44,069 nt of DNA, from NCBI GenBank assembly GCA_003554665.1, contig PWGY01000272.1, positions 1 to 44,069 on the forward strand. Reading direction: 5' to 3'. Position numbers and translations under genes: made by a program. The notes below the pieces were generated by a model. The model did not search any database. It saw nothing but the letters and a program-made list of their open reading frames with translations, and had not been told where the DNA came from. Source of the DNA: Bacteroidales bacterium (GTDB lineage Bacteria; Bacteroidota; Bacteroidia; Bacteroidales; UBA7960). The number at the start of each line of letters is the position of its first letter. Within the stretch, counting starts at the first letter, position 1. Positions 2,241-26,245 of this stretch are shown one piece after another.

Positions 2241-3407
2241 TTATTTCTTAAACATTTCCGCTGTTTCTGCCACCGCCTGTATGGCCGCATCAATGTCAGC
2301 CTCACTATTAAACGGCCCCACACTCAGGCGAACCGTACCGTGAATATCTGCCGTACCGATGCTTTCATGCACCTTGGGCGCACACTGCAGGCCGGTTCTT
2401 GACGCAATATTGTAATCCACATCGAGCATGGTCCCCACTTCACCGGCCTCTACACCATCAATATTGAAACTCAAAACAGGGTTTTGATTCTCTGTGTTTT
2501 CCGCACAATAGGTTGTGACATTTTCAATTTGCTGAAGGCCTTTACGAAGTTTATCCCAAAGGCCAATCTCATGCTGATGAAGGTTATCCATTCCCTTCAT
2601 GTTGATCCATTTCACCCCGGCATGTAATCCGGCCACACCCAACAAATTCAGTGTCCCACATTCCAAACGGTAGGGAAATTCATCAAGGTGGGTCAGCTGG
2701 GCAGACCTTACGCCAGTTCCCCCGAAACGAGTGCATCGAACCGGAACATCCTTCATTACATAGGATCCTCCTATACCTGTGGGACCCATCAGACACTTAT
2801 GGCCGGTAAAAACAAACACATCAATGCCCATGGCCTGCATGTCCACCTCTGTAATTCCTGCACTCTGGCAACCATCCACCACAAAAAGCACACCCGCATC
2901 CTTGCAGATCCGGCCAATTTCCTGTACAGGCTGAACCGTACCAATGATATTGGAACTGTGGTTCACCACCACCATTTTGGTATTCTTCCGGATCGCTTTT
3001 TTGATGTCATCCGGATCCAGGTATCCATGCCTGTCAAAAGGTACGTGTGTCAGATCAATGGTGCCGTCCAGCTGCAGGTGATGCAATGGCCTTAACACAG
3101 AATTATGTTCAAGCTTTGTGGTAACCACATGATCCCCTTTCTCAGCAAGCCCCTGAAGAATCATATTCAGTGAATCACTGGCATTGTAGCTGAAGGTCAA
3201 ACGATCCGGGTCACCATCGCCGTTAAACAATTCCATCAGCATCCGGCGGGTTTGATGAACCATTTCTTCGGTCTGGATGGAGGCATCAAAGCCTGAACGG
3301 CCAGGACTCACACCGTGTTCACAGTAAAAATCGCGCATGAAATCATAGACCTCTTCCGGTTTCGGAAAGGAGGTTGCAGAGTTATCCAGGTAAATTAAGT
3401 CTTGCAT
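2241..3407 (-). CDS. Class V aminotransferase, cysteine desulfurase family
   Basis: A 388-residue PLP enzyme resembling the group-II-like cysteine desulfurases (TIGR01977-type). Members mobilise sulfane sulfur from cysteine. It shows an N-terminal YLDNSATSFPKP, His101 for cofactor stacking, the VDGCQSAG Asp178/Gln181 pair, the Schiff-base lysine K204 in TGHKCLMGP, and a catalytic cysteine candidate C342 in RTGLQCAP near the C-terminus. It is the last gene of the five-gene minus-strand operon, 21 bp after the DsrK-like gene. That setting suggests it supplies persulfide sulfur to the DsrC-like protein in the same operon (inference). Selenocysteine lyase activity cannot be excluded. It ends close to tandem repeats and a bidirectional terminator. 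Confidence 0.85.
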   Translation of the reverse strand: MQDLIYLDNSATSFPKPEEVYDFMRDFYCEHGVSPGRSGFDASIQTEEMVHQTRRMLMELFNGDGDPDRLTFSYNASDSLNMILQGLAEKGDHVVTTKLEHNSVLRPLHHLQLDGTIDLTHVPFDRHGYLDPDDIKKAIRKNTKMVVVNHSSNIIGTVQPVQEIGRICKDAGVLFVVDGCQSAGITEVDMQAMGIDVFVFTGHKCLMGPTGIGGSYVMKDVPVRCTRFGGTGVRSAQLTHLDEFPYRLECGTLNLLGVAGLHAGVKWINMKGMDNLHQHEIGLWDKLRKGLQQIENVTTYCAENTENQNPVLSFNIDGVEAGEVGTMLDVDYNIASRTGLQCAPKVHESIGTADIHGTVRLSVGPFNSEADIDAAIQAVAETAEMFKK

Positions 3408-3428
3408 GGAAGAGATATTTATACGTTA

Positions 3429-4736
3429 TTATTTCTGAGACTTTGGTTCGATTACGAGAGAGTCGGCCACAATTTCTGCAATGGTCTTGATCTGGACATT
3501 CAGCTTATAATTCACATTGATCTGCGACAGCTGGTCCACACAATTGTGACAGGGCGTGGCCACAATTTTTGCCCCTGTCTTTCTGATCTGTTCCGCCTTG
3601 ATCTCAGCGATTTTCAGCCGCCTGTCGTTGTATTCGCCCATGGCAAGCTGCCCGCCACCACCACCGCAGCAAAAGTTATCCAGACCATAAGGGGACATCT
3701 CCACAAAGTTTTGCACACAATTCTTTAAGATATAGCGCTGCTCATGCCATATACCGCCACCACGCACCAGATTGCACGGATCATGCAGGGTCACAACCTC
3801 CTCAGTCAGGCTTTTGTCGGGAGTAATTTTTCCCTCACGAAGATAAGCGGCCATCAATTCAACGGAACTGATGGTTTCAGGAAAAGCCTTTTTGATATAG
3901 TTCGGAGCCTCCCAGCGATTGGCCCTGTACCCGTGACCACATTCAGCCAGCACAAGTTTGCCTGCCTTCATTTTCTCCATTTCTTCATAAATCCGCTGGC
4001 CGATAATGGCTCCGTGTTCCTGGTTGCCGGAGAAATATGCATAATTGGTCACATCATACATGGCAGTGGACAAGCTCCAGCTTTCACCGGCGGCATAAAA
4101 AACTTTGGCCATGGCTGATATGGACAGGGGGAAAAATTTGGGCTCCCTCGGGTTCAATGTGTACAATACATTTTTACCGGGTTGGTTTACAGGAATCTCT
4201 GCTTGCGGGTCTTCAAGATCATCCTGAAGCTCCTCCTCCATCCATTCAATGGTATCAAGGAGCTCTTCGTCGGGTATGGCCATATTGTTGCCCGTTTCAA
4301 GTGCCGCATTCACAGTGGCCTGTAAGGAAGCCGGGACATATCCCATGTCAGACAATATTTTCCGGCCCATCCGTACAACATATTCAATATCCACCCCGAT
4401 GGAGCAGTGTCTCACACACCGTCCGCACATGGTACAGGCACCAAACAACAGATCCACCATTTCTTCCACGGTGGCATCATCCAGTTCCCTGGCGTTGACA
4501 AGACGGGGAGCAACCCTGCCGGCAAGTGTATGGTAGCGGCGATAAACAGAAGCTACCACATCCACCTTGTTGGCCGGAATCATCCGCTCATCCTGCATGG
4601 TCAGATAATACAAACAGGAATCCGCGCAAAGTCCGCAATGCACACAACTGTTCAGGTGCGTCAGCAACTTGCCGTCATGCAATTGCCTGAACACATCCAG
4701 ACCGGCCTTAATTTTATCTTTGGTTACTTTTTCCAT
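3429..4736 (-). CDS. DsrK/HdrD-like iron-sulfur protein with CCG domain
   Basis: A 435-residue (Fe-S)-binding protein related to the catalytic subunit of heterodisulfide reductase (HdrD) and to DsrK. Two ferredoxin-type cluster motifs are complete: C31-C34-C37-C41 and C101-C104-C107-C111. The C-terminal half has the CCG cysteine motif C321 (HDPC), C356-C357 (CCGGG), C396 and C399 (PCHNC), the signature that holds the unusual disulfide-reducing 4Fe-4S centre. C266 (ECGHGY) may mark a second, partial CCG half. No transmembrane segment is seen, so it should be a cytoplasmic partner of the membrane protein encoded 6 bp upstream. The likely role is exchange of electrons between quinone and a DsrC disulfide or trisulfide (inference from DsrMK). 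A generic lactate- or glycolate-oxidase-like Fe-S subunit is less likely because dsrC is next door. Confidence 0.85.
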   Translation of the reverse strand: MEKVTKDKIKAGLDVFRQLHDGKLLTHLNSCVHCGLCADSCLYYLTMQDERMIPANKVDVVASVYRRYHTLAGRVAPRLVNARELDDATVEEMVDLLFGACTMCGRCVRHCSIGVDIEYVVRMGRKILSDMGYVPASLQATVNAALETGNNMAIPDEELLDTIEWMEEELQDDLEDPQAEIPVNQPGKNVLYTLNPREPKFFPLSISAMAKVFYAAGESWSLSTAMYDVTNYAYFSGNQEHGAIIGQRIYEEMEKMKAGKLVLAECGHGYRANRWEAPNYIKKAFPETISSVELMAAYLREGKITPDKSLTEEVVTLHDPCNLVRGGGIWHEQRYILKNCVQNFVEMSPYGLDNFCCGGGGGQLAMGEYNDRRLKIAEIKAEQIRKTGAKIVATPCHNCVDQLSQINVNYKLNVQIKTIAEIVADSLVIEPKSQK

Positions 4737-4742
4737 GAAGAA

Positions 4743-5387
4743 TCATACTTTTCGGGGCGGCCAAACATTCCGCCAGCCATAGAAGCGACCAAGGTAGATC
4801 CTGGCAGCAAAGAAATAAACGGCATGCCTGAGTTTTCCCAGTGGCATATACAACAGCAGCAAGGCGCTCACCAACATAAAGACCGGGTATGCAGCCGGGA
4901 GCAACAGTGTCAATCCAGCCATAGCCAGAAAAACAATCACCAGCGTAAGCGAAATAAAGTCGTCGGCATTGGATAAATACTTTAATTTCTGATCACGCAG
5001 GCGTTTAATCAGCATTCCGGCGCCGGTTACTGCACCCGAAAAAGTCACAATGGAAAGGAGCAGACTGGCTGATTGCCCCGGGTTAACACCTGTGAGGAAA
5101 AGAAAAAACAGCACGATGGTCACAAATACAGCAATATGAAATATAACACCTGACACATATGTTGGAAGGTTCAGATAAGCCGATTCTTTTTTTCTGGGAT
5201 CCATCCCCCCGGTAAAAGAATAAAACACACCTGCTGCAGGGCTTCCTGCCCGGGCGGAATAGTCGTCCTGAACCCCGAGCCTGATCAGCCTTAACATATG
5301 ATAAGCCAAACCGGCAAAGCAAATCAACAATGCCCCGAGGGCAATCCATTCAAACCAATACATAAGCAACGTATTATACACAACCAT
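4743..5387 (-). CDS. DsrM/NarI-like membrane cytochrome b subunit
   Basis: A 214-residue integral membrane protein with about five to six hydrophobic segments (roughly 10-30, 78-100, 107-127, 145-165, 168-182 and possibly 189-203). Conserved-looking histidines suitable for haem b ligation are H30, H84 and H188, the last in GKLRHAVYFFAAR. This fits the nitrate reductase gamma/DsrM fold, which oxidises menaquinol and passes electrons to a cytoplasmic Fe-S partner. The gene overlaps the end of the DsrC-like gene by 14 bp if the first ATG is used; an alternative ATG at codon 9 (position 5363) would remove the overlap. It is followed after 6 bp by the DsrK-like gene. The pair looks like a minimal DsrMK unit without the periplasmic J, O and P subunits. 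Confidence 0.75.
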   Translation of the reverse strand: MVVYNTLLMYWFEWIALGALLICFAGLAYHMLRLIRLGVQDDYSARAGSPAAGVFYSFTGGMDPRKKESAYLNLPTYVSGVIFHIAVFVTIVLFFLFLTGVNPGQSASLLLSIVTFSGAVTGAGMLIKRLRDQKLKYLSNADDFISLTLVIVFLAMAGLTLLLPAAYPVFMLVSALLLLYMPLGKLRHAVYFFAARIYLGRFYGWRNVWPPRKV

Positions 5388-5691
5388 CCGGTTTCGGCAA
5401 ACCTGCTACACGACAGGCACCCCTGGCAGGACCCAGCGGAAAAAGCTGGTAAATTTCCCGAAGTTTAAGCCCGGTTTTTTTGCAGATGACCCGGATCATC
5501 GGAGCCATCCCCTTTTCTTCATAATTCTCACGTATGATCTTCACCACATCCCAATGCTTATCCGTCATCTCTTCAATCCCGTCATATTTAGCAATAAGCT
5601 GCGCTACTTCATCATTCCAGATTTCAGGATTGGCCAGAAAGCCATCCCCGTCCACTTCAAATGTTTTTCCTTCAATTTCTATTGTTGGCAT
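5374..5691 (-). CDS. DsrC/TusE-family sulfur carrier with both C-terminal cysteines
   Basis: A 105-residue protein with the whole DsrC fold: MPTIEIEGK start, DGFL and W26 near the N-terminus, then the flexible arm ending ACRVAGLPKPDGCV. Both redox cysteines are present, C93 (CysB) and the penultimate C104 (CysA), 11 residues apart. Two cysteines mark true DsrC-type proteins, which form an intramolecular disulfide or a trisulfide; TusE proteins for tRNA thiolation keep only CysA. The substrate is therefore probably a protein-bound persulfide, delivered to or from the membrane DsrMK-like pair encoded directly downstream with a 14-bp overlap. No dsrAB is present in the window. Confidence 0.92.
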   Translation of the reverse strand: MPTIEIEGKTFEVDGDGFLANPEIWNDEVAQLIAKYDGIEEMTDKHWDVVKIIRENYEEKGMAPMIRVICKKTGLKLREIYQLFPLGPARGACRVAGLPKPDGCV

Positions 5692-5720
5692 AATTCAAAT
5701 AATTTATTCATTTCGGGTTG

Positions 5721-5981
5721 TTACTCATTCAGATTATTCATTTCGCGCTCCTCAAAAATATCCAGGATCTCGCCAGGAGACCAGGGACTGTCGGGCAACA
5801 CAAAATCGGGGCAAAAATTCAGCTCCTTTTTGGTGAGATAGCGCTTGCACTTGCCCCATGCTTCACCTTCACCCAGGCAATACTCACGGATATATCGCCT
5901 CTGCCGGTTTTTATCCGGTAAAACTTCCTCCTTACTGATCAGCTGACAATTGACATAGTTGGGGCAGTTCTCGCCTTGCAT
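5721..5981 (-). CDS. Small cysteine-rich protein, first gene of the dsrC-like operon
   Basis: An 86-residue soluble protein with cysteines C6, C12, C35, C45 and C57 (pattern C-x5-C-x22-C-x9-C-x11-C). It starts MQGENCPNYVNC and contains YCLGEGEAWGKCKRY. The spacing suggests a zinc- or Fe-S-binding fold; I do not recognise a characterised function. The frame is open up to 6071, but a promoter -7 box lies at 6008-6015, so the ATG at 5981 is the better start. It lies 29 bp upstream of the DsrC-like gene and is probably co-transcribed, which points to a sulfur or redox role (inference). Confidence 0.65.
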   Translation of the reverse strand: MQGENCPNYVNCQLISKEEVLPDKNRQRRYIREYCLGEGEAWGKCKRYLTKKELNFCPDFVLPDSPWSPGEILDIFEEREMNNLNE

Positions 5982-6007: not shown

Positions 6008-6015
6008 CAAATATA
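6008..6015 (-). promoter_or_regulatory. Predicted -7 element for the dsrC-like operon
   Basis: Minus-strand TATATTTG, a perfect TAnnTTTG match, lies 27 bp upstream of the chosen ATG at 5981. No clear -33 TTTG is visible. Its position argues against the upstream start at 6071. Confidence 0.5.
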
Positions 6016-6072: not shown

Positions 6073-6097
6073 TTGTTACAATATTTTTCTACATTTG
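6073..6097 (+). promoter_or_regulatory. Predicted promoter of the cobalamin operon
   Basis: TACATTTG at 6090-6097 matches the -7 motif; TTG at 6073-6075 is a weak, closely spaced -33 candidate. The predicted start near 6103 is just ahead of the riboswitch, as expected. Confidence 0.5.
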
Positions 6098-6104
6098 CAA
6101 AACG

Positions 6105-6280
6105 TACAGGTTTCCGGAATCTTTTCAGATCATCCGGATGAAAAGGGAATCAGGTGAAAGTCCTGAACAGTTCCCGCTGCTGTAAGCTCCTTACCGTTTT
6201 GTGTTTATCACCCCTATGCCACTGCCGTTTCGGGCGGGAAGGCGATAAACATGGAGTAAGTCAGAAGACCTGCCTGCACA
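6105..6280 (+). promoter_or_regulatory. Cobalamin (B12) riboswitch
   Basis: Recognised from the conserved core: GGGAATCAGGTGAAAGTCC (6145-6163), then a CCCGCTGCTGTAAG block near 6173-6186, ATGCCACTG, GGGCGGGAAGGCG, and the B12-box-like AGTCAGAAGACCTGCC ending at 6274. The 5' CAGGT at 6107-6111 can pair with ACCTG near the 3' end to form P1. It sits in the long leader of the BtuB-like gene and should lower expression of the operon when adenosylcobalamin or a related cobamide is bound. The rest of the gap up to the start at 6436 holds the expression platform; no classical terminator hairpin is obvious, so control may be translational. Confidence 0.93.
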
Positions 6281-6435
6281 CATCAAGTAATTGTAGCTTC
6301 CGGGAAAAAAGCGATCATATTTCGCCGTCTGTTACATTGATGTTTTCTGTTTTAACCAATTGAGATCCGGACACCCCGGTGTGTTGTCATTGCCAACCGG
6401 CAGTGTTTCGGTGCCATGTAAAAAAGTGTTCATCT

Positions 6436-8436
6436 ATGAATGACCGGCAATTTGCCTGTTACCGGCTAGTCTTTGTCTTCCTGCTATTACCCCTGGCAGC
6501 TGTTGGGAGCAACCACCCTGCCGACACCCTGATTACCCTTGAGGCAACAGAAATAGCTTCACCCAGACATCGCACTTTCAGCGCCGGCCACAGCATTCAT
6601 CAAACAGACAGCACAGTGCTTGCACGCTATAGCCTAAATGGCCTCGATCATCTATTATCCAGGCAAACAGGTATTTCCATCAGAAATTACGGACCGGGTG
6701 TGCTGGCCACCAGCTCCCTGAGGGGAGGGCCAGCCGGGCAAACGGCGCTGGTTTGGAATGGATTCAACCTGCAGAGCCCCGCCACCGGCCAAACAGACCT
6801 TTCCCTGATCCCTGTATTCTTTACCGACGATGCAGGAGTACAATACGGCGGAGGAAGTGCCCTGTGGGGCAGTGGCAGCATGGGTGGAGCCATCCATCTG
6901 AACAACAACAGGCCTGTTGGAAGGCGTTCTTTTGCAAGGGCTCAGGTCTCCGCTTCCGATATGGGTGAGGCAGCCCAATACCTTGATCTTTTTGGGAGCC
7001 GCAACCAAACAGCTTCCCGCCTGAGGGTTTTTCACAAAAACTCTGACAATGAGTATCGCTACAAAAACACCCGCTTACAAGGTGACCCGACACTCACCCA
7101 GCAACACGCTTCATTGCAGCAATACGGAATTCTGCATGAAACATATTTTGCACCCGGAACACGCCACCAGGGTTCACTCAGATTGTGGTGGCAGCAAAAC
7201 AACCGTCACATACCCCCTGCCGTGATGGCCACGCACACCGGGGCATACCAGGAAGATGATGCCCTGAGGATCACCGGTCAGTGGCAGTTTCACATGGATC
7301 GTAGCAGCATTACCTGGCGTGGCGGTTATTTCAATGAAGGATTGTTTTATCGCGACAGCCTTAACCAGTCAAGCCAATCCTCTTCTCAAACATTTGTCCA
7401 GGAGGCGGAAGCGCTGTTTTACTTTTCACCGGATATTTCCGCCAACACCGGAATTAAAACAAAGTGGGTCAAGGCAGAATCCGATTCCTATACAGACCAC
7501 AAACAGGAGCAATTAATTTCTGTTTTCGGATCATTGAGATGGGAGCTTCTCACCGATCAGCTCCAGTTCATTGCCAGCGGACGTCAATCATTCACAAACC
7601 ACCAGGCCCCCCCCCTTGCCCCGTCTTTCGGGGTTTCCTGGCAGCCCACCACCCGGATACTGGTCAGGGCCAATGCGGGAAAAAACTACCGGTTGCCCAC
7701 CCTGAACGACAAATACTGGGTGCCGGGGGGCAATCCCGACCTGAAACCCGAACAAGGCTGGAGCCAGGATTTGAAAATCAGTTTTTCCAATCAAACAATT
7801 AATCCGGAATACCTTCCCGGCCAACGGCAAACAGAATCAGCCTTCCGAATCAATGAAATCAGCCTTACCGGGTTTCACCGCAGGGTGAATGAATGGATTA
7901 TCTGGTTGCCACAACAGGGGAGCATGTTCTGGAGCCCGCAAAACCTCATGGAGGTGCAAAGCTACGGGCTGGAGGCAAGAATCTCAGGCAACATCAGACT
8001 GCAGGAGGTTGCAGTAAGCTGGCAGGGCCGCTGGAACCATACCATTGCAAAAAACACCCGTACACAAAGCCCCGGTGACAGATCTACCGGCAAGCAGCTG
8101 ATATACGTTCCCAAAAATTCTTTGGGTTACAATCTGGATATCGGCTACAAGGCCTTCACCCTGAATTTTGACCATCAGTTCACAGGGAAAAGATATACCG
8201 CAAAAGATCACAGCGCCTGGCTTGATGCCTATCAAACAGGAGACCTCACCCTGCAATGGCAAACCAGTGTGAACCAGCACAATATATCAGTATTTGCCAC
8301 AATCAGCAACATATGGAATACCTCTTACGAGGTTATGACCGGCCGGCCCATGCCTTTAAGGCACACAAGGGCCGGAATCAGACTGCAGTTAATTCAAAAA
8401 AACAGGAAGAATGAAAACGACCAATCATTAATTTAA
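6436..8436 (+). CDS. btuB: TonB-dependent receptor, BtuB-like, for cobalamin
   Basis: An outer-membrane beta-barrel receptor of 666 residues. It has a signal peptide (about residues 1-25, hydrophobic LVFVFLLLPLAAVG), a TonB plug domain (ISIRNYGPGV, SSLRGGPAGQTALVWNGF) and a long barrel ending in an aromatic/basic strand. There is no N-terminal carboxypeptidase-like domain, as in BtuB and unlike SusC proteins. The frame is open back to 6379, but the ATG at 6436 places the signal peptide correctly. Direct control by the cobalamin riboswitch upstream identifies the substrate as B12 or another cobamide. It is followed after 19 bp by a DUF4465 protein and then by further surface proteins. Confidence 0.88.
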   Translation: MNDRQFACYRLVFVFLLLPLAAVGSNHPADTLITLEATEIASPRHRTFSAGHSIHQTDSTVLARYSLNGLDHLLSRQTGISIRNYGPGVLATSSLRGGPAGQTALVWNGFNLQSPATGQTDLSLIPVFFTDDAGVQYGGGSALWGSGSMGGAIHLNNNRPVGRRSFARAQVSASDMGEAAQYLDLFGSRNQTASRLRVFHKNSDNEYRYKNTRLQGDPTLTQQHASLQQYGILHETYFAPGTRHQGSLRLWWQQNNRHIPPAVMATHTGAYQEDDALRITGQWQFHMDRSSITWRGGYFNEGLFYRDSLNQSSQSSSQTFVQEAEALFYFSPDISANTGIKTKWVKAESDSYTDHKQEQLISVFGSLRWELLTDQLQFIASGRQSFTNHQAPPLAPSFGVSWQPTTRILVRANAGKNYRLPTLNDKYWVPGGNPDLKPEQGWSQDLKISFSNQTINPEYLPGQRQTESAFRINEISLTGFHRRVNEWIIWLPQQGSMFWSPQNLMEVQSYGLEARISGNIRLQEVAVSWQGRWNHTIAKNTRTQSPGDRSTGKQLIYVPKNSLGYNLDIGYKAFTLNFDHQFTGKRYTAKDHSAWLDAYQTGDLTLQWQTSVNQHNISVFATISNIWNTSYEVMTGRPMPLRHTRAGIRLQLIQKNRKNENDQSLI

Positions 8437-26158: not shown

Positions 26159-26173
26159 GATTTCATTAAGTAG

Positions 26174-26245
<72 letters not shown>

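Follow-up and report, generated by a model that had tools for sequence, protein, structure and literature searches.

A conserved operon of DsrC, a predicted membrane redox pair and a cysteine desulfurase in uncultured Bacteroidota

The operon and its gene products

The DNA analysed here (the window) is a 44,069 nt stretch of contig PWGY01000272.1 from a Bacteroidales bacterium (UBA7960), and it contains at positions 2241..5981 an operon of five minus-strand open reading frames (ORFs). These code for an 86 amino acid (aa) cysteine-rich protein, a DsrC with two C-terminal arm cysteines, a membrane protein, an iron-sulfur protein related to DsrK, and a class V cysteine desulfurase. The module is real and widespread and its parts form a coherent functional set; we infer its redox direction and its sulfur source. 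The original prediction, made from the sequence alone, described a five-gene combination of this kind, with the middle pair named as DsrMK-like and no sulfite reductase visible. Its five ORFs are where it placed them, and the gaps of 29, -14, 6 and 21 bp that it gave are correct for the ORFs as listed. The gap of -14 between DsrC and the membrane gene applies to an ORF of 214 aa that opens at base 5387; because M9 of this ORF does not vary in an alignment of 28 sequences, the majority of which start there, translation probably begins at base 5363 (206 aa), which would make the gap about +10.

Relatives were sought in representative genomes with the membrane protein profile alone, so that the other genes of each locus are unselected; 139 DsrM relatives were found and the best 80 were kept as loci (L001-L080). 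The DsrC gene (5374..5691) encodes 105 aa that match PF04358 (E=1e-36) and TIGR03342 (109 bits, above the cut-off of 53.5), and the C-terminus, GAC(93)RVAGLPKPDGC(104)V, has arm cysteines 11 positions apart. C70, C93 and C104 are each present in 80/80 loci, which together with the profile match upholds the two-cysteine DsrC of the original prediction. This conservation of the second arm cysteine, C93, is unlike single-cysteine TusE, and the window protein scores 75 bits with the TusE equivalog model, below the 191-bit cut-off; a separate DsrC without the second arm cysteine is also found in four of the 80 loci. A tree of DsrC sequences, one of the checks proposed at the outset, places the operon proteins in their own clade (support 100/99), apart from the DsrC sequences of Chlorobi type and from the PDB that the tree includes. 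The available text of PMC3397948 (2012) describes the second cysteine as present only in organisms with DsrAB, with Methylococcaceae, Marinobacter and Lawsonia as exceptions, and almost always missing from the proteins of organisms without DsrAB; here, in contrast, a whole clade keeps it, and no dsrA-like match is found in 35 carrier genomes (see below).

The desulfurase gene (2241..3407) is the last of the operon. Its product scores 417.1 bits with TIGR01977 (EF2568-type), above the cut-off of 377, and has K204 (conserved in 56/57) and C342 (55/57, the remainder in both cases being gaps), which we take to be the pyridoxal phosphate (PLP) lysine and the active-site loop cysteine; the class V assignment made earlier is thus confirmed. 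For whole-genome searches, 35 of the 80 carriers were taken, with long loci favoured and near kin of the window added. All 35 have a TIGR01977 match above the cut-off (36 copies, two of them in G034), compared with none of 14 control genomes. It is the operon copy that passes in 34 carriers, as the sole such copy in 33, and in G035 (locus L080) the TIGR01977 copy is outside the locus. An additional, lower-scoring desulfurase match (196-277 bits, two being contig-end pieces) is present in 34 of the 35 and is presumably the housekeeping enzyme; besides its operon desulfurase, G001 has only weaker pieces. Judged by profile score, the operon desulfurase is distinct from the other copies in the carrier genomes. 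Its presence also goes with that of DsrC: in a set of 41 G001 relatives, desulfurase matches of more than 340 bits occur in 7 of 9 genomes with an operon-type DsrC (115 bits or more) versus 4 of 32 without (Fisher p=4e-4), where both limits were chosen after viewing the scores, and use of the curated TIGR01977 cut-off instead gives 6/9 versus 2/32 (p=4e-4). Two genomes with DsrC and no desulfurase (G050 and G052) are counted as misses; their scores match those of L003 and L002, which end inside DsrK.

Between these genes lie those for the membrane pair. The DsrK-like gene (3429..4736) encodes an HdrD/DsrK/TmcB/HmcF-like protein with two 4Fe-4S ferredoxin motifs (Fer4) and one CCG domain, and the motif cysteines are conserved in 67/67 sequences for both ferredoxin motifs and in 65-66/67 for the CCG motif, the remainder being gaps. 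It scores 293.4 bits with HmcF, 292.9 with TmcB and 233.4 with DsrK (NF045796), all below the respective NCBIfam cut-offs of 750, 735 and 400. The NF045796 cut-off is passed by 61 of 395 genomes of the phylum, nearly all with open frames of ~550 aa. Its partner (4743..5363, in the ORF that opens at 5387) is a DsrM/TmcC/HmcE-like protein that has no Pfam match and weak NCBIfam matches to TmcC (34.5 bits, cut-off 240) and HmcE (25.5 bits, cut-off 275). An AlphaFold 2 (AF2) model is closest to NarI, a quinol-oxidising cytochrome b. Two histidines, H84 and H188, are present in 81/81 sequences and align (hhalign, probability 95.6) with two of the four histidines of five Chlorobi-type DsrM proteins, the remaining two positions being Phe in the window protein; H84 and H188 are putative haem ligands. 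The DsrMK label of the original prediction therefore holds for the families and fails for the specific complex: by profile score the pair is not canonical DsrMK and is nearer HmcEF/TmcCB, with two of the four histidines kept. We note a different DsrC-DsrM-DsrK arrangement at two other loci (L108 and L109), in which DsrM is 328-333 aa and DsrK ~537-552 aa, DsrC shares C70, and there is no desulfurase match.

Gene order, distribution and neighbouring genes

DsrC is directly upstream of the membrane gene in each of the 78 loci that extend far enough to hold it (74 by script, four by eye), the DsrK-like gene is directly downstream in 69 of 77 (68 by script, one by eye), and the desulfurase directly follows DsrK in 55 of 60. 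The loci added by eye (L036, L049, L054, L064 and L018) were missed by the script through over-extended 5' ends that overlap the adjacent gene. This order, DsrC-DsrM-DsrK-desulfurase, far exceeds chance. The original prediction would have been refuted by dsrAB elsewhere in the genome or by a lack of co-conservation in relatives; both were looked for in relatives, and neither was found. The module is conserved and is very probably not a displaced dsr fragment.

The proposed fifth member is optional. The 86-aa protein (5721..5981) is encoded by the first gene in the window and has five cysteines (C6, C12, C35, C45 and C57; C-x5-C ... YC ... C-x-R ... CPDF) that are invariant in 43/43 sequences, with no Pfam, NCBIfam or PDB-fold match, and its gene was detected ahead of DsrC in 42 of the 75 loci eligible; what stands of the five-gene set is thus a co-conserved module with an optional leader gene. 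About 27 bases before the first ATG is a candidate Bacteroidota-type -7 element on the same strand, TATATTTG (6008..6015), read from the sequence on the basis of TAnnTTTG, which we take to be the consensus of that element.

The membrane protein is present at E<=1e-20 in 44 genomes of an even sample of 393 from the order of the nearest relative. By record title the carriers are metagenome-assembled genomes (MAGs) of Bacteroidota and Ignavibacteria, with two exceptions: L053 is titled simply 'bacterium', and L046, titled Alphaproteobacteria, matches L057, a Bacteroidales locus, in operon layout and neighbour clusters and is probably a mislabelled or mixed MAG. The loci occur across many uncultured gut and sediment bacteria, and some titles point to lakes and sediments.

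Several accessory genes recur, here counted over all 80 loci at E<=1e-10 and named from one representative each: TusA in 7, DsrE-type in 8, FlpD in 6, HdrA- in 7, HdrA2- in 7 and QmoC-like in 7. Six loci (L011, L018, L039, L044, L071 and L073) have TusA, DsrE2-type, FlpD, HdrA-, HdrA2- and QmoC-like genes all together, and a desulfurase-to-DsrC relay plus an Hdr-type electron route is possible there. A 500-aa class V PLP protein with no close named family is encoded in 16 loci (e.g. L044:8143-9663), directly upstream of DsrC in 11, with the 86-aa gene between in three, and downstream in two. L039, L044 and L052 have, further upstream, genes for a sulfide:quinone oxidoreductase (SQR)-like protein, for a DsrE2-type protein and for another DsrC, one without the second arm cysteine; the L044 SQR scores 627.6 bits, above the 'type III, selenoprotein subtype' cut-off. 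In 11 of the 80 loci there is a gene whose product begins with a short Cys-rich stretch and is Crp/Fnr-like by eye only. The TusA, DsrE-type, FlpD, Hdr-, QmoC- and SQR-like accessories, the 500-aa PLP protein and the second DsrC are all absent from the window.

The window has several other features. Divergent from the operon, a Cobalamin riboswitch (RF00174, 106 bits; 6091-6291, plus strand) precedes a TonB-receptor ORF (6379-8436). Shortly after the desulfurase stop there are three near-perfect copies of an 18-base unit (2163-2216), followed at 2062-2141 by two copies of a 40-base repeat. A tRNA-Met (CAT) gene is identified by both ARAGORN and Rfam at 26173-26245 on the minus strand.

Sulfite reductase, other Dsr components and quinone markers

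None of the 35 carrier genomes, for which completeness is not stated, has a match to the dsrA profile TIGR02064 at E<=0.001. The same profile matches 8 of the 14 control genomes, one of them E. coli, with scores under the cut-off in every case, and none of the 14 is known to hold dsrAB. Single absences could reflect assembly gaps, though 35 of 35 are not easily explained in this way. A Pfam scan of 29 of the 32 other long ORFs in the window (three short, doubtful ones were left out) detected no family of sulfite reductase, NrfD, further Dsr proteins or cytochrome c. The statement that no sulfite reductase is visible holds within the window and, beyond it, could be followed only in the 35 relatives searched, where it holds as well. 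NrfD (PF03916) is above its cut-off in 23 of the 35 carriers, on contigs other than that of the operon desulfurase, except in G010 where the two are ~18 kb apart. There are no JOP genes with MK in the window, and DsrJ and DsrO were not profile-searched in the carriers.

Quinone markers are less uniform. MqnC scores more than 420 bits in 15 of the 35 carriers (10 above the cut-off) and MenD is above its cut-off in six; one or the other is present in 21, a count that includes G032, whose 304 bits is at the level of a second, MqnE-like set. NqrB is above its cut-off in 19 of the 35. Among the 14 carriers without MenD or MqnC markers, five have MenA and nine have NqrB above cut-off, and in the five sediment MAGs searched (L001, L004, L006, L007 and L014) the UbiA-family match is below the MenA cut-off and NqrB is above its own. 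The original prediction cited menaquinol as the reductant of DsrMK in established sulfur metabolism; this role is doubtful for the nearest relatives of the window, where MenD and MqnC are not found, although NqrB is present. Quinone scavenging is possible in the marker-free carriers; alternatively, there may be another electron donor.

Proposed function and comparison with known systems

We propose, with a probability of about 0.45, that the module is a membrane-bound, cysteine-fed and quinone-linked reductase of oxidised DsrC that releases sulfide. The operon desulfurase would move the sulfane sulfur of cysteine to the penultimate DsrC cysteine, C104. Attack by C93 would then release hydrogen sulfide and join C93 to C104 as a disulfide, or as a trisulfide where the sulfur is retained between them. 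Reduction of this oxidised DsrC would take place at the CCG iron-sulfur cluster of the DsrK-like protein, with electrons supplied by the NarI-like partner from the quinone pool. In sum, cysteine and reduced quinone would yield alanine, sulfide and quinone. Such an electron sink would work without a sulfite reductase and might be coupled to energy conservation. A more doubtful extension is 'cysteine respiration', in which the sulfane sulfur of cysteine serves as the terminal electron acceptor for a dedicated desulfurase, DsrC and an HmcEF-like membrane module with one haem, and sulfide is released with no sulfite reductase; similarly tentative is its scope, respiratory or fermentation-linked, in a good share of the uncultured Bacteroidales and their relatives.

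Arguing for the cysteine-fed reductase are the fixed gene order, the conserved motif residues, the tie of TIGR01977 to the operon, the lack of a dsrA match, the NarI-nearest fold, and the six loci with the full set of TusA, DsrE2-type, FlpD, Hdr- and QmoC-like genes. There is also a published precedent: in section 7 of PMC3397948, A. vinosum DsrC is persulfurated solely at the penultimate cysteine by E. coli IscS plus cysteine, or by sulfide alone. Several observations weigh against the proposal. Neither MenD nor an MqnC/E-level match is found in 14 of the 35 carriers, including five sediment MAGs of the isolate series of the window, and the membrane protein keeps just two of the four Chlorobi-type histidines. 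DsrK is not beside DsrM in 8 of 77 loci; seven of these have DsrC before DsrM and the eighth, L078, starts too close to DsrM to judge. A full-length DsrK is nevertheless encoded in seven of the eight genomes, on a different contig in six and, in G074, ~12 kb upstream on the contig of the locus. In 5 of 60 loci DsrK has no desulfurase gene directly behind it; one of these (L045) has it one gene further on. TusA, DsrE and Hdr genes are absent from the window. Finally, since sulfide alone also worked, the IscS precedent is one of a site that can be loaded, not of specific loading by a desulfurase.

Of the alternatives, the one that survives best, and that we nonetheless consider unlikely, is a sulfur relay or biosynthetic supply, in which DsrC is loaded for an acceptor (tRNA thiolation, a thio-cofactor or Fe-S clusters) and the membrane pair keeps DsrC reduced. 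TusE is a homologue of DsrC, E. coli has a desulfurase-to-TusE relay according to the available text of PMC3397948, and some loci have the TusA (7/80) and DsrE-type (8/80) genes. However, the operon DsrC keeps both arm cysteines throughout, against the near-general absence of the second one reported in that text for organisms without DsrAB, and four loci have a separate DsrC without it. Of the 35 carriers, 34 have another desulfurase-family match, presumably the housekeeping enzyme, and a complete membrane redox module would be costly for a relay.

It is rather improbable that the module runs in the oxidative direction, with sulfane sulfur or the DsrC dithiol oxidised and electrons passed into the quinone pool in sulfide- or polysulfide-linked metabolism. 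This would fit the three loci that have SQR-like, DsrE-type and second DsrC genes upstream, the seven with HdrA2-like and QmoC-like genes (named on L011), and the titles that point to lakes and sediments. However, there is no dsrA-like partner in 35/35 carriers, SQR- (3/80) and Qmo-like (7/80) genes are infrequent within <=10 kb on each side and missing from the window, and a cysteine desulfurase is ill-suited to oxidising environmental sulfide. Slightly less probable still is disposal or sensing of sulfane sulfur, in which excess persulfide or polysulfide is removed with energy incidental and the 86-aa protein acts as a regulator that binds metal or as an assembly factor. Its five invariant cysteines and frequent first position, and the 11 loci with the Crp/Fnr-like gene, are consistent with sensing, but the 86-aa protein is undetected in 33 of 75 eligible loci, and disposal would not need its own sulfur-generating desulfurase. 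That the operon is a piece broken off from an ordinary dsr locus, as the shared protein families might suggest, is very improbable given no dsrA-like match in 35 carriers, the separate DsrC clade and an arrangement conserved over 80 loci.

The operon is not described in the available text of PMC11406059, PMC8076601, PMC10920352, PMC9948710, PMC9774590 or PMC10591310, in which the Bacteroidota named with Dsr genes are Chlorobia or Kapabacteria with DsrAB. PMC10504309 mentions some DsrM or DsrMK without DsrAB, and its main text has no terms beginning 'Bacteroid'. If the proposed cysteine-fed reductase is correct, a DsrC-type carrier would allow sulfide formation and electron disposal from cysteine in organisms missed by dsrAB-based surveys, gut and sediment Bacteroidales among them, and this minimal four-gene system would make the DsrC-reductase step separable from sulfite reduction.

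The module resembles four known systems in part. It shares with the TusE relay (IscS-TusA-TusBCD-TusE) a desulfurase and a DsrC/TusE family protein in the locus, with TusA and DsrE-type genes in some, and differs in the second arm cysteine that is always kept, in the membrane redox module, and in its TusE equivalog score. The FlxABCD-HdrABC system of Desulfovibrio, described with DsrC in fermentative growth in the available text of PMC10920352 and PMC10504309, likewise uses DsrC outside sulfite reduction, and HdrA- and FlpD-type genes are in 6/80 loci; in the window there is no Hdr or Flx gene, and the redox neighbour of DsrC is a membrane protein. The HmcEF and TmcCB subunits of the Desulfovibrio Hmc and Tmc complexes give the best NCBIfam scores for both members of the pair and are of similar size (24-25 kDa for TmcC and HmcE, 50-53 kDa for TmcB and HmcF, as given in PMC10920352). 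Unlike Hmc and Tmc, the pair scores far below the curated cut-offs and has no recognised multihaem cytochrome c gene beside it, with DsrC and the desulfurase linked instead. The fourth is DsrC-DsrMK(JOP) itself. The module falls outside the canonical Dsr pathway because four defining features were tested and none was found: DsrAB in the genome (sought with the dsrA profile in the 35 carriers), a DsrK above the NF045796 cut-off (233 versus 400 bits, with 435 aa here versus 537-550 aa in Chlorobi-type loci), JOP genes adjacent to MK, and a four-histidine DsrM of the di-haem kind described in PMC8076601 (206-214 aa and two of four His here). It differs too in the desulfurase within the operon and the extra C70 of DsrC. 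Shared with DsrC-DsrMK(JOP) are the two-cysteine DsrC, the adjacent cytochrome-b-like and HdrD-like proteins and the intact CCG motif; in function the module would work like DsrC-DsrMK.

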